From the NCBI GenBank assembly GCA_029259945.1, contig JAJDEF010000022.1, forward strand, positions 62,001-126,000: a stretch of 64,000 nt of DNA, in the 5' to 3' direction. The notes beneath the pieces were generated by a model. It saw only the letters and a list, made by a program, of their open reading frames with translations. It made no database searches and was not told the origin of the DNA. The position numbers and the translations under genes are program-made. The stretch comes from Planctomycetota bacterium (GTDB lineage Bacteria > Planctomycetota > Planctomycetia > Pirellulales > Lacipirellulaceae). Below, piece after piece: positions 752-4,467 of this stretch. Positions within the stretch are counted from its first letter, which is position 1. The number at the start of each line of letters is the position of its first letter.

Positions 752-2344
752 TCAGGAACTCCCCGACCTCCGACCTCCGACCTCCGACCCCTCTTCTTTA
801 CACAATTTGTACTCGATACTATCCACCAGAGCATTCCAACTGGCTTCGATGATGTTTTCGTGGACACCGACGGTGCCCCAATTGTCGTCGGCATCGCGGC
901 TTTCGATCACTACGCGAACACTGGCGGCAGTGGCCGCGTCGGAGTTGATGACCCGTACCTTGTAGTCGACCAACTGCATTTCGTTCAAGGTCGGAAAATG
1001 CCCATTCAACGCTTTTCGCAGTGCTGCATCCAAGGCATTGATCGGGCCATCCCCCTCAGCCACCTCGTGGCGAAGCTGGTCGTTCACCAAAAGCTTGACA
1101 GTTGCCTCGGTAATGGGCTGCCCACCACGATTCACGACGCTACTGTGATATTGCACCAGCTCGAAATGCGGTTGGAAGGTGCCGGCGGCGCGCTTCACCA
1201 GCAAATCGAACGAAGCCTCGGCCGCCTCGAATTGGTAACCACGATTTTCTAGATCCACTACCTGCTTGAGAATGCTATTCATCAGCTCTTTGTCGTGTTC
1301 AAGATTGTGCTTCGTGGCCATTGCGATGATGTTCGAGCGGCCCGACAATTCGCTGACCAGCACACGCCGTTCGTTCCCCACGGCCGCCGGTTCGATATGC
1401 TCGTAGCTAGAGGCTGCCTTCGCCACGGCATGAACATGCATGCCCCCTTTATGCGCAAACGCGCTCGGCCCAACAAACGGCTGGCCTGTGCGAAAGTGCA
1501 TGTTGGCAATCTCATAAACATAGCGAGAAAGCTCGGTGAGATGCTCGACACTCTTTCCGCCAAGTACCTCGTAGCCCTGCTTCTTGAGAGCAAGGTTCGC
1601 GATGACCGACACCAAGTCGGCATTGCCACAGCGTTCGCCGAACCCGTTGATCGTCCCTTGCACATGGACAGCCCCGGCATCCACCGAAGCCAACGTGTTG
1701 GCGATGGCTAGCTCACAGTCGTTATGCGTATGAATGCCCAGCGGACAGTCGACCTTGGACGCTGCCTCCTTGGTAAGTGCCGCTATTTCTTCGGGCAGGC
1801 TACCACCGTTGGTATCGCACATGACAAGGATCGACGCCCCCGCCTCGGCTGCGGCATGGATTGTCTTCGCAGCATATTCCGGATTCGCCTTCCAACCATC
1901 GAAAAAGTGCTCGGCATCGTAAATCACCTCGCGGCCTGCACCAACTAAGTAAGCAACCGTATCGCGAATCATCGCAAGATTTTCGTCGAGCGAAACGCCA
2001 AGCACCTCGGTCACATGAAAATCCGACGTCTTGCCAACAATGGTAATGACCGGGGCTTGCGAATCAAGCAGCGATTTCATGCCAAGGTCGTCTGCGGCTT
2101 TCATCCCTCGGCGTCGCGTCATGCCAAACGCACAGGCTTTACTGTTTTGCAAAGGCTTTTCAGCCAGCCGTTGAAAGAACTCTGCGTCTTTAGGATTCGA
2201 CAACGGGTAACCACCCTCGACAAAGTCGAAGCCCAGCTCGTCGAGCCGCCGTGCGATCAGCAGTTTGTCTTCCAGCGAAAAATTAACGCCTTCGCCTTGA
2301 GCACCATCGCGGAGCGTCGTGTCGTAAGTTTGGATACGGGACAT
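752..2344 (-). CDS. cimA: (R)-citramalate synthase / 2-isopropylmalate synthase family
   Basis: Condenses pyruvate with acetyl-CoA to citramalate, the entry step of the threonine-independent isoleucine route. The 530-residue protein starts MSRIQTYDTTLRDGAQGEG, the HMGL-like active-site motif in the form usual for CimA. It then has the metal-binding and catalytic stretch GIHTHNDCELAIANTLASVDAGA and QGTINGFGERCGN. A C-terminal LeuA-type allosteric dimerisation domain spans roughly residues 380-510. I chose the ATG at 2344 rather than the longer open frame to 2734, because the extension would run through a terminator and a leader peptide. The last codons (EEGSEVGGRRSGSS) come from a CGACCTC tandem repeat at 764-791. 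Regulation is probably by the attenuator just upstream. LeuA-type specificity cannot be excluded, but the N-terminus favours CimA. Confidence 0.9.
   Translation of the reverse strand: MSRIQTYDTTLRDGAQGEGVNFSLEDKLLIARRLDELGFDFVEGGYPLSNPKDAEFFQRLAEKPLQNSKACAFGMTRRRGMKAADDLGMKSLLDSQAPVITIVGKTSDFHVTEVLGVSLDENLAMIRDTVAYLVGAGREVIYDAEHFFDGWKANPEYAAKTIHAAAEAGASILVMCDTNGGSLPEEIAALTKEAASKVDCPLGIHTHNDCELAIANTLASVDAGAVHVQGTINGFGERCGNADLVSVIANLALKKQGYEVLGGKSVEHLTELSRYVYEIANMHFRTGQPFVGPSAFAHKGGMHVHAVAKAASSYEHIEPAAVGNERRVLVSELSGRSNIIAMATKHNLEHDKELMNSILKQVVDLENRGYQFEAAEASFDLLVKRAAGTFQPHFELVQYHSSVVNRGGQPITEATVKLLVNDQLRHEVAEGDGPINALDAALRKALNGHFPTLNEMQLVDYKVRVINSDAATAASVRVVIESRDADDNWGTVGVHENIIEASWNALVDSIEYKLCKEEGSEVGGRRSGSS
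764..791. repeat. CGACCTC tandem repeat
   Basis: Three exact CGACCTC units (764-784) plus a degenerate fourth. They overlap the 3' end of cimA, so they encode its terminal residues. They are inverted relative to the copy at 552-565. Confidence 0.75.
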
Positions 2345-2410
2345 TTGAGGGGTCGGGGTTAGGGGGAGGAATTTAGTTTGGCGCGAAGTAATCGCTATAG
2401 GCCTTTCCAA

Positions 2411-2448
2411 CAAAAAAAGCCCCGAAGCCTTTATGGGCCTCAGGGCTT
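2411..2448 (-). terminator. Intrinsic terminator of the cimA attenuator
   Basis: On the minus strand the 13-base arms 2448-2436 and 2429-2417 pair completely (two G-U pairs) around the six-base loop CAUAAA, followed by seven U residues (2418-2412). It sits between the Ile/Val-rich leader ORF and the cimA start codon, where the terminator stem (3:4) of an attenuator belongs. Confidence 0.88.
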
Positions 2449-2486
2449 GTATGTGTATCGGTGCAACCGAACTCCACCCTAAGGCC
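2436..2486 (-). promoter_or_regulatory. Antiterminator pairing competing with the terminator
   Basis: RNA bases GGCCUUAGGG (2486-2477) pair perfectly over 10 bp, one G-U, with CCCUGAGGCC (2445-2436). That second segment is the ascending arm of the terminator stem, so the two structures exclude each other. The upstream arm contains the UAG stop codon of the leader peptide. A ribosome reaching the stop would mask it and allow termination. A ribosome stalled on the earlier Ile/Val codons would leave it free and allow read-through. A small 5-bp hairpin (2500-2496 with 2490-2486) could act as the 1:2 pause hairpin. Confidence 0.8.
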
Positions 2487-2538
2487 GTCCGCTGGGGACG
2501 ATGCCAGCTACGATAATCGCAATAATACCGACGCCCAT
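2479..2538 (-). CDS. Ile/Val-rich leader peptide of the cimA attenuator
   Basis: A 19-codon ORF reads MGVGIIAIIVAGIVPSGRP, with five Ile and three Val, all within codons 3-14. It ends in UAG inside the antiterminator arm and lies directly upstream of the terminator and cimA. Family knowledge: the ilvGMEDA and ilvBN leader peptides of enterobacteria are likewise runs of Ile/Val/Leu codons placed just before a terminator. In-frame ATG codons at 2574 and 2604 would lengthen it to 31 or 41 residues (adding MITIPTLEPAMLAAL...). The 2604 start has an AGGT upstream, and no start has a strong ribosome binding site. The coding assignment is inferred from composition and placement. Confidence 0.72.
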   Translation of the reverse strand: MGVGIIAIIVAGIVPSGRP

Positions 2539-2877
2539 TGGCGTCGATTTCGCAATTCTCAAGGCAGCTAACATAGCGGGCTCTAGGGTTGGGATTGTAA
2601 TCATCAGTCTGGTTACCTGAGTCTAGCCGCCCATGGCTTGGCAAGCAAGCGGGACACCACGGGCCGGTTGGGCGTATTTCATCGGCAATAATAGGCATCG
2701 AGCGACGAATTAGCTGATGAAGGGCTTTTTCCAAGGGGCCTCACTGCGGTAGTCTTCAATGGGTGAGCTACGCTGTAAGGAGGCGGAATAGAGCAAATGG
2801 TTCGCGTGAGCCGATCAGGCTGAACTTTCAATTCACCACGGTCTAAGAAAAATCCAACTTTCATGGAGCAAATACCG

Positions 2878-4467
2878 ATGCCTACTATCTTTCTCATTGC
2901 CGGTGTTGTCTTGGCGGGGCTAATCATTGCTAGCTCGGCTCAGGTGCGATCGCTCCAACTTCGGATGGCTGCGGTCGGCGCAGCAGTGGTGGTCATGCTG
3001 ATTTTCTTTACGCTGGCTTCGTTTCAATACATTAGCCAAGACGCAACCGGCGTGGTCTCGAAGAGCATCGGTTTCAAGTCGTTACCGCCCGGAAAAATCA
3101 TCGCAACCGAGGGCGAAAAAGGTCCACAGGCTCGCATCTTGCCACCCGGTTGGCATCCCTGGTATTGGCCATTTATCTACAGCATCGAAAAAACACACGT
3201 GATCGAAATCGAACAAGGCACCGTGGGAATGATCACCGCTGCCGACGGTCAACCCTTGCCACCAGGGGCCACCTATGCCCCACCTTGGGAGCCAGGCACC
3301 GAGCGACAGATGGCTCAAGATGCAAAATACTTTCTCACTGTGGGCGGCGGCTACAAAGGCCCGCAAACTTCGGTACTCAAACCGGGTAAATATCGATTCA
3401 ACCCAAAACTCTACAAACTAGAGATCGCAGACATACTAACGATAAAAAAAGCCGAAGTCGGCGTGGTGAAGTCAAACGTCGGAGAAGCGCCAGGCACCGG
3501 TGCAGGAGATGCCGAAGTCGGAGTCCGTAAACTGGTAAATGTCGGTCAGCGAGGAATCTGGAAAACTCCGTTGGTTCCCGATCAATACTACGATTACAGC
3601 CACTCGAAGGCCTATCAGGTCACGACCATCTCGACTCGCAAGCAAATCGTACGTTTCACGGCTAGCAGTGACCAACAAACGATAGGTTCTTCTGGAGAAG
3701 AACGAGAAATCATGGTCCGCACCTCCGATGGTTTTACATTCCCGGTGGACGTGCGTATCGAGTATGAGATTCATCCGAATGATGCCCCCTTGTTGGTTGC
3801 CATCGTCAGCGATGACAAAGAGGGCTTGCGGAGTGTTATGAATTCGGTGGTCCGAGCAATTTTCCGAAACAATGCCGAAAGGGTCAAAGCACTCGACTAT
3901 GTCCAGCAGCGGTCGCAGCAGGAATCCGAGTCGATGAAAATGCTTAAAGAAGAAATGGGGAAATTCGGAGTCACCGTCACCGGCGTTCGCATCGGGGACG
4001 TAGGCAACGAGCAAACGCTGGGCGCGCTACTCAAAACACAAACCGATCGAGAAATCGCCTTGCAAGAGCAAGAGACGTTCAAAGAACAGCAACGAGCCGC
4101 TGAACAAAGAAAACAACTCACCAAAACCGAGCAAGAGGCCGAGGAAGAAAAACGCCTGGCAACGGCTGCTTACCAGGTGCAGATTGCCGAGAAGGAACGC
4201 GAACGGGTCATCATCGAGGCGCAAGCCGAAGCCGAAGCCGTGACGCTAAGAGCCGACGCGCAGGCAAAAGCTTACGAACAAATCGCCAAGCAAATCGGCA
4301 GTGGTAACGCGGCGCTTGTTGAAATCCTAAAAATTGTCGGCGACGGGGGAATCGAAATCACTCCAAAAGTGATGGTCATCGGACAAGGCAGTGGCCAGAG
4401 TGCAGAAACCACCGCACTGATCGGTACGATGCTAAACACCATGGTTCAAGATGCGCCAAAGAAGTAG
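2878..4467 (+). CDS. SPFH/band 7 domain membrane protein, flotillin-like
   Basis: SPFH proteins form large membrane-attached oligomeric assemblies that organise membrane microdomains or associated proteases. Two hydrophobic segments near the N-terminus (about residues 2-20 and 31-50) are followed by an SPFH domain region (GVVSKSIGFKSLPPG ... GWHPWYWPFIYSIEKTHVIEIEQGTVG). Next comes a long charged coiled coil (about 360-460, rich in EQ and KE), the repeat EAQAEAEAVTLRADAQAKAYEQ typical of flotillins, and a C-terminal Gly/Ser-rich oligomerisation end. The ATG at 2878 has GGAG nine bases upstream; an ATG at 2863 would add five residues. It is transcribed divergently from the cimA leader. The exact physiological partner is unknown. 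Confidence 0.85.
   Translation: MPTIFLIAGVVLAGLIIASSAQVRSLQLRMAAVGAAVVVMLIFFTLASFQYISQDATGVVSKSIGFKSLPPGKIIATEGEKGPQARILPPGWHPWYWPFIYSIEKTHVIEIEQGTVGMITAADGQPLPPGATYAPPWEPGTERQMAQDAKYFLTVGGGYKGPQTSVLKPGKYRFNPKLYKLEIADILTIKKAEVGVVKSNVGEAPGTGAGDAEVGVRKLVNVGQRGIWKTPLVPDQYYDYSHSKAYQVTTISTRKQIVRFTASSDQQTIGSSGEEREIMVRTSDGFTFPVDVRIEYEIHPNDAPLLVAIVSDDKEGLRSVMNSVVRAIFRNNAERVKALDYVQQRSQQESESMKMLKEEMGKFGVTVTGVRIGDVGNEQTLGALLKTQTDREIALQEQETFKEQQRAAEQRKQLTKTEQEAEEEKRLATAAYQVQIAEKERERVIIEAQAEAEAVTLRADAQAKAYEQIAKQIGSGNAALVEILKIVGDGGIEITPKVMVIGQGSGQSAETTALIGTMLNTMVQDAPKK

Follow-up and report, generated by a model that had tools for sequence, protein, structure and literature searches.

A Predicted Isoleucine/Valine Leader-Peptide Attenuator Upstream of cimA and Its Sister Elements in Planctomycetota

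Introduction

Does the region upstream of cimA, the citramalate synthase gene of a planctomycete, work as a ribosome-mediated transcription attenuator, and does it stand alone in its genome? In the enterobacterial ilvGMEDA, ilvBN, and leuABCD leader attenuators, a short leader ORF carries clustered Ile, Val, or Leu codons. Ribosome-mediated attenuation works only with coupled transcription and translation, and this coupling is disputed for planctomycetes. The region lies in a 64-kb stretch of DNA (the window, i.e., the whole stretch analyzed), in which a reading made from the letters alone (the sequence-only reading) had proposed a complete attenuator.

That reading knew of no described cimA attenuator in a planctomycete. 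In agreement with it, neither a cimA attenuator nor any planctomycete amino acid attenuator was found among the papers listed by searches of the attenuation literature; the bacteria-wide attenuation paper of Lopatovskaya (2010) could contain one. The available portions of five articles (PMC4833913, PMC2864571, PMC1262725, PMC5287468, and PMC8567305) mention neither, and the portion of PMC4833913 with a count of short leader ORFs close to planctomycete genes names no such attenuator. As far as these searches go, what is new is not the mechanism, which is known, but where it occurs, what it targets, and how it is reused through swapped codons. If the interpretation given here is true, it would give Planctomycetota, for which the papers listed described none, a system of amino acid attenuation, and it would put attenuation on the citramalate route to isoleucine.

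Results

Anatomy of the Region Upstream of cimA

The features of the region are, in the direction of cimA transcription:

2863 to 4467, plus strand: divergent neighbor, SPFH/Band 7 protein (PF01145, 56.2 bits)
2643 to 2648, minus strand: predicted -35 element TTGCTT (TTG conserved in the own sequence and four close relatives)
2620 to 2625, minus strand: predicted -10 element TAGACT (TAGACT, TAAACT, or TAAAAT in the own sequence and four close relatives)
2479 to 2574, minus strand: leader ORF MLAALRIAKSTPMGVGIIAIIVAGIVPSGRP with its stop codon, 31 codons, likely true start ATG 2574 (five-sequence alignment)
2500 to 2526, minus strand: core regulatory codon run ATT ATT GCG ATT ATC GTA GCT GGC ATC (read from the sequence)
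2477 to 2486, minus strand: antiterminator upstream arm GGCCTTAGGG, which pairs with 2445-2436 and holds the leader stop codon
2436 to 2445, minus strand: shared arm CCCTGAGGCC, both the antiterminator downstream arm and the core of the terminator 5' arm
2417 to 2448, minus strand: rho-independent terminator hairpin, 13 bp with a 6-nt loop (hairpin scan and 26-sequence alignment)
2412 to 2418, minus strand: T7 tract of the terminator (read from the sequence)
755 to 2344, minus strand: cimA, citramalate synthase, the predicted controlled gene, 530 aa, stop codon 752-754 (TIGR00977)

The leader, both pairings, and the terminator all lie upstream of the cimA ATG at 2344 on the minus strand, where they had been placed. 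A mechanical ORF does extend cimA to TTG 2734, as had been cautioned, and its frame differs from that of the leader. The enzyme probably does not include this extension, since the TIGR00977 match (671.5 bits; cut-off 450) begins at residue 134 and runs to residue 648 of the 660-aa ORF. Citramalate synthase likely starts isoleucine synthesis in the host planctomycete. Because the neighboring gene is divergent, the terminator is not its own.

The sequence-only reading gave the leader as a 19-codon ORF (MGVGIIAIIVAGIVPSGRP and stop, 2538-2479, minus strand). That reading frame is present; its start is probably ATG 2574 and not ATG 2538. In an alignment of the own sequence (L001) with the close relatives L003, L004, L005, and L008, ATG 2574 was conserved in 5/5 sequences and ATG 2538 was replaced by TTG in L004, so the leader most likely has 31 codons. 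One GTC codon flanks the core run on each side. No strong Shine-Dalgarno sequence for the leader was apparent when the sequence was read by eye.

Transcripts starting downstream of 2448 had been named as evidence that would speak against an attenuator; a conserved promoter-like pair sits upstream of the leader instead. This pair (2648-2620; 17 nt between -35 and -10 in the own sequence) came from the alignment, as a scan with a generic consensus called no promoter, and it likely puts the RNA start near 2613.

The proposed antiterminator was found as described: GGCCTTAGGG (2486-2477) pairs with CCCTGAGGCC (2445-2436) over 10 pairs, one of them G-U, and the leader stop codon TAG at 2481-2479 sits inside the upstream arm. 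The terminator, AAGCCCTGAGGCC with GGCTTCGGGGCTT (2448-2436 with 2429-2417), has the 13 pairs claimed for it, two of which are G-U, so that "perfect" was slightly too strong a word. Likewise, the T7 run (2418-2412) is present, with two of its Ts belonging to the stem.

Folding of the 136-nt region gave a z of -3.16, with 1/200 shuffles equally good. A scan for the combination of stop codon, I/V-rich frame, terminator, and antiterminator returned this element as the sole match on both strands of the 64-kb window and no match in 20 shuffled windows, a weak control since the shuffles had no terminator/stop combination.

Spread of the Element Among Relatives

Homologues of cimA were gathered from 43 family genomes, 39 of which had one, and as the best 80 of 589 from genome contigs. 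In many of the upstream regions, a leader-blind hairpin search picked up terminators that follow the pattern CCCTGAGGCC...GGCCTCGGGG-T, and many also hold a frame whose end is the complementary GGCCTTAGGG. Alignment A1 was comprised of 26 of 34 candidates, chosen from loci picked for their hairpins; the less clean L008, L044, L045, L055, L056, L058, L117, and L119 were left out. Covariance model R1 was built from A1.

R1 matched in 43/43 family genomes at E values up to 1, with many of the weaker matches reading as plain terminators. Of the 39 family genomes with cimA, 27 had an R1 match ahead of the gene (E at most 3.6e-4); two of these matches were ~2 kb away, separated from cimA by another gene. 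Contigs ended near cimA in two further family genomes, leaving a denominator of 37. In 10/37 family genomes with enough upstream sequence, including Bythopirellula polymerisocia, there was no recognizable element before cimA, and a scan of 1.28-1.4 kb upstream of cimA in those ten revealed no terminator accompanied by an I/V-rich leader. Conservation in relatives, which had been put forward as a check, holds in this divided form: many relatives keep the element and ten family genomes are missing it. The relatives without a recognizable attenuator within ~1.3-1.4 kb of cimA were L009, L011, L013, L014, L019, L023, L028, L031, L115, and L116, of which four belong to the same genus.

In the class Planctomycetia, R1 matched in 323/397 genomes at E values up to 0.1, plain terminators included. 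In the phylum sample, 24/149 genomes had a match at E values up to 1e-4, and 17 of these genomes were outside the class. Altogether, genomes across the Pirellulales carry the candidate element before cimA, as do members of the genus that includes Gemmata sp. IIL30 and some genomes from outside the class Planctomycetia.

Some loci had an unusual arrangement. At L284 and L285 (genomes G026 and G028), a putative membrane protein gene of ~650 codons lies between attenuator and cimA. At L286 (G213), a similar putative membrane protein carries a cimA-like N-terminus (MPRTQIHDAALRVGAQGEG), where the contig ends. In G037 (C215:12202-13878), the cimA match is split into two collinear parts (residues 3-262 and 263-522), ~117 bases apart and each listed with a 607-aa open frame; this is perhaps an in-frame insertion of ~39 codons.

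Leader Codons and Downstream Genes

The gene downstream was classified by blastx at 81 loci, namely 80 of the class R1 matches listed (E 1.3e-11 to 7.0e-7; a subset of that listing) and the own genome's second match. In total, 55 loci preceded cimA, 19 preceded leuA, and six preceded DAHP synthase; one (L258) looked like a chance match. A further 20 class loci comprised 18 before cimA and two unclassified.

Over the last 16 codons of the leader, I+V exceeded L in 55/55 cimA leaders and L exceeded I+V in 19/19 leuA leaders, an enrichment that is partly selected because the frame at each locus was chosen for the most I/V or L. In a control, the stop codon was chosen by pairing energy alone, with no codon criterion. 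Four of 99 leaders had no terminator in the script and are absent from this control, as they are from the swap test, the stop-arm counts, and the ribosome model below; 1/95 gave no stop. The structure-only stop was identical to the earlier choice in 86/94 leaders. With it, I+V exceeded L in 68/76 cimA leaders (five opposite, three ties), and L exceeded I+V in 18/18 leuA leaders. The relatives therefore keep Ile/Val codons before cimA, as the sequence-only reading had suggested checking.

All ten DAHP synthase loci examined had an upstream frame with at least five F/W/Y in ten codons; this frame is the best at each locus, and second-best frames reach three to six F/W/Y. Citramalate synthase, leuA, and DAHP synthase each represent the entry step of a pathway. 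Outside the class, 14 of the 20 listed matches were fetched: two preceded cimA, two leuA, three DAHP synthase, and one an isoleucyl-tRNA synthetase-like gene, with six unassigned. The synthetase-like case (L283, G494:C31:143840-145900) had the leader MHKTTDSIAIIITSPKNR and stop, with matching arms, before a gene that reads as isoleucyl-tRNA synthetase. The Ile-rich stretch of the L283 leader is SIAIIITSPKNR, ending in its stop codon.

The own genome contained three elements, with Ile/Val codons before cimA, Leu codons before leuA, and Phe/Tyr/Trp codons before DAHP synthase. The leuA element (L151 300-760, G000:C34; R1 E 2.8e-10) has the leader MFIAPLLPLLLLLLPKGGN and stop, the same kind of arms, and a terminator; its protein matched TIGR00973 at 662.6 bits. 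The DAHP synthase element (L268 1170-1500, G000:C38) has the leader MDAVRNYFFWFSFTSARFFRSGAGTRGSV and stop, which contains YFFWFSF; its protein matched TIGR01361 at 393.6 bits. This locus was found by protein search, and its R1 match is weak (E 0.0077) and covers the hairpin part only. A possible GCGGTGC/GCACCGC antiterminator pairing was seen in the DAHP synthase leader. The sequence-only reading had described a single cimA attenuator. That element stands, and its scope is wider, with leuA and DAHP synthase sister elements in the own genome and in other planctomycetes; the candidate first noted has at least two counterparts in its genome, within a system that, judged from sequence, is spread over the phylum.

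Codon usage was counted in 80 cimA leaders (55 plus 26, less one duplicate). Ile codons in these leaders were AUU 223, AUC 82, and AUA 1, vs. AUU 396, AUC 1523, and AUA 20 in the CDS stretches of the same loci (odds ratio 10.5); in the 19 leuA leaders, CUA made up 29/131 Leu codons vs. 4/602 in their CDS. For these counts, too, the frame was the one chosen for the most I/V or L. Leaders prefer the minor codons AUU and CUA. A bias to minor or wobble-read codons is expected of a charged-tRNA sensor and is known for enterobacterial leaders. The maximum of I/V frequency fell on codons -8 to -6, counted from the stop (0.67, 0.66, and 0.51; 79 cimA leaders).

Several other matches and loci were read individually. 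The weak R1 matches in G000 C42 (E 0.0013), L163, and L167 were on reading other hairpins, and L271, L277, L278, L279, and L282 from the phylum search look like gene-end hairpins. L270 (G544:C87:17700-19650) is the strongest R1 match among those listed outside the class (E 1.3e-9); its arms GGACCTTAGGG and CCCTGAGGTC match, its leader MCLTVSSNLIKGGGP ends in a stop codon and is without a run of one amino acid, and the next ORF has 100 codons. Just upstream of the leuA leader in L159, L162, and L164, TTGACC is followed by a TATACT- or TATAGT-like hexamer, promoter-like by eye.

Covariation of the Two Helices

On the 26 sequences of A1, the terminator had 87.9% of cells paired and 5/13 pairs changed on both sides, and the antiterminator had 83.4% of cells paired and 4/11 pairs changed on both sides. 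Slid versions of either helix paired 22-70% of cells. The covariation score was higher than in all 500 shuffles for both helices; the counts of both-side changes were reached by 12 (terminator) and 41 (antiterminator) of 500 shuffles. Compensatory changes, proposed as a check on both stems, are thus seen in each.

In 77 cimA and 18 leuA leaders, the stop-codon arm was paired either with its own shared arm or with a shared arm taken from a different species. Own arms of the cimA leaders averaged -16.9 kcal/mol vs. -13.7 kcal/mol for swapped arms (sd 0.31), and own arms of the leuA leaders averaged -18.9 vs. -16.5 kcal/mol (sd 0.53), with 0/2000 permutations as good in either set; kinship makes these sd values too small and by itself does not favor true pairs. 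Single loci that beat shuffled arms by 2 sd numbered 43/77 for cimA and 14/18 for leuA. Leaders ending in UAG or UAA had CUGA-type shared arms (52 vs. 5), and those ending in UGA had UCAG-type shared arms (18 vs. 4), with 16/95 leaders unclassed (Fisher p 6e-10, rows not independent). The leader stop codon, too, tracks the terminator arm.

These results bear on the simplest alternative, a plain terminator with a chance hydrophobic ORF, in which the hairpin would serve to insulate cimA or to stop antisense or upstream transcripts and no amino acid is sensed. Terminator-like hairpins are common, and R1 also finds other, weaker hairpins (L152, L163, L167, L258, and six of the 14 phylum matches fetched). 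Against this stand the divergent orientation of the neighboring gene, the T tract on the cimA side only, the covariation of the stop-codon arm with the terminator arm, and leader codons that follow the downstream enzyme in 74/74 cimA and leuA loci (86/94 with the structure-only stop). A plain terminator is therefore very unlikely, even as the best surviving of the alternatives.

Ribosome Position and Proposed Mechanism

Ribosome spacing was modeled by letting the ribosome cover 13 nt, an assumed footprint counted from the first base of the A-site codon. With the ribosome on the last regulatory codon, an antiterminator of at least five pairs formed in 72/77 cimA and 18/18 leuA leaders; with the ribosome at the stop codon, it formed in 0/77 and 0/18. 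The remaining 5/77 cimA leaders did not form it in the model under the stalled ribosome. By this computation the spacing fits the claim that stalling frees the upstream arm and finishing the peptide masks it. For full-length RNA at equilibrium, the terminator outweighed the antiterminator (medians) in all three modeled states, including the stalled one, so the switch would have to be kinetic and decided during transcription. With no ribosome in the model the antiterminator still formed (median 9 pairs for cimA and 11.65 for leuA), and hence no protector hairpin is apparent.

A stalled ribosome might instead act on translation, by altering the folding near the cimA start or by reinitiating there, and pairing of the leader with the ribosome binding site of leuA has been proposed for actinobacteria (available portion of PMC1262725). 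The presence of a U-tract hairpin is no independent evidence on this point because the elements were found by it. Across A1 (26 sequences), anywhere from 37 to 234 nt separate the end of the hairpin from the cimA start, and the ~650-codon gene intervenes in G026 and G028; both points count against translational control and leave it slightly less probable still than the plain terminator. Least probable of all is a T-box or riboswitch, a leader RNA that binds tRNA or a metabolite, with an incidental ORF: same-pathway genes in Firmicutes are often under T-boxes, but the leader codons swap with the target gene, and an Rfam scan of positions 2000-3000 of the window gave no family at gathering score, T-box included, the one weak match being NsiR1 (23.3 bits vs. 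a gathering score of 39) at 2412-2469 over the hairpin.

The Ile/Val leader-peptide element before cimA thus very probably acts as a ribosome-mediated transcription attenuator, and the sequence tests support the reading from which the analysis began. What was observed directly is how the element is built, that many relatives keep it, that both helices covary, and that the leader codons agree with the pathway of the downstream enzyme. Leader ORFs with clustered end-product codons are present at the cimA, leuA, and DAHP synthase loci; terminator and antiterminator are mutually exclusive, share an arm, and show compensatory change; and ribosome position decides the pairing in computation under the assumed 13-nt footprint. 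The protector or pause hairpin (1:2) that forces termination without translation in strict trp/his-type attenuators is not apparent here.

In the proposed mechanism, transcription would begin near 2613 and a ribosome would trail the polymerase through the leader. When charged tRNA-Ile/Val is ample, the ribosome would arrive at the stop codon (2481-2479) and cover 2486-2477, the shared arm (2445-2436) would pair with 2429-2420, and transcription would terminate at the T tract (2418-2412). When charged tRNA-Ile/Val is scarce, the ribosome would stall on the AUU/AUC/GUN run and 2486-2477 would remain free, pair with 2445-2436 before the second arm of the terminator exists, and so allow cimA to be transcribed.

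Discussion

The planctomycete element resembles the enterobacterial ilvGMEDA, ilvBN, and leuABCD leaders in its clustered-codon leader ORF, its shared-arm terminator and antiterminator, and its use of minor codons (CUA in leu leaders). It differs from them in the gene controlled (citramalate synthase), in having no apparent protector hairpin and no Rfam match, and in a stop codon that lies inside the antiterminator arm and covaries with it. Also unlike the enterobacterial leaders, planctomycetes reuse similar arms for the Ile/Val, Leu, and aromatic pathways.

Actinobacterial ilvB leaders and the LEU element of leuA likewise place leader ORFs with Ile/Val/Leu runs before branched-chain genes. 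According to the available portion of PMC1262725, the ilvB leaders overlap the terminator and that of leuA takes part in a pseudoknot at the ribosome binding site of its gene, both unlike the planctomycete element. The same portion reports that codon mutations in the look-alike ilvB leader of Streptomyces coelicolor were without effect, which counts against an attenuation reading. The Corynebacterium ilvBNC attenuator is alike in having a leader region before a branched-chain operon, described in the portions available as a three-hairpin model (PMC11857589) and a conserved uORF (PMC10272879); it belongs to another phylum and another gene.

On balance, we lean toward a phylum-wide attenuation regulon in Planctomycetota, in which one RNA switch with swapped leader codons would serve Ile/Val (cimA, and isoleucyl-tRNA synthetase in one genome), Leu (leuA), and aromatic (DAHP synthase) synthesis, with transcription and translation coupled at these genes. 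Planctomycetes, and above all Gemmata, have been argued to separate transcription and translation in space (Gottshall et al., 2014, as cited in the available portion of PMC5287468), and the Gemmata nucleoid is said to be membrane-enclosed (available portion of PMC3440768). If the switch works as predicted in the genus to which Gemmata sp. IIL30 belongs, where the element is conserved, the ribosome must closely follow RNA polymerase there. The presence of the element in 17/19 genomes of this genus makes the dispute over coupling simply testable.

Gemmata sp. IIL30 itself carries the element (L081), on a contig that matches L183 of G240 at 100% identity over 3107 bases; G240 is therefore Gemmata sp. 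IIL30 or its twin. Each of the 17 genomes had exactly one R1 match, 17/17 of these matches preceded cimA, and 16 of the 17 cimA elements had at least six I/V in 16 codons of the best frame.
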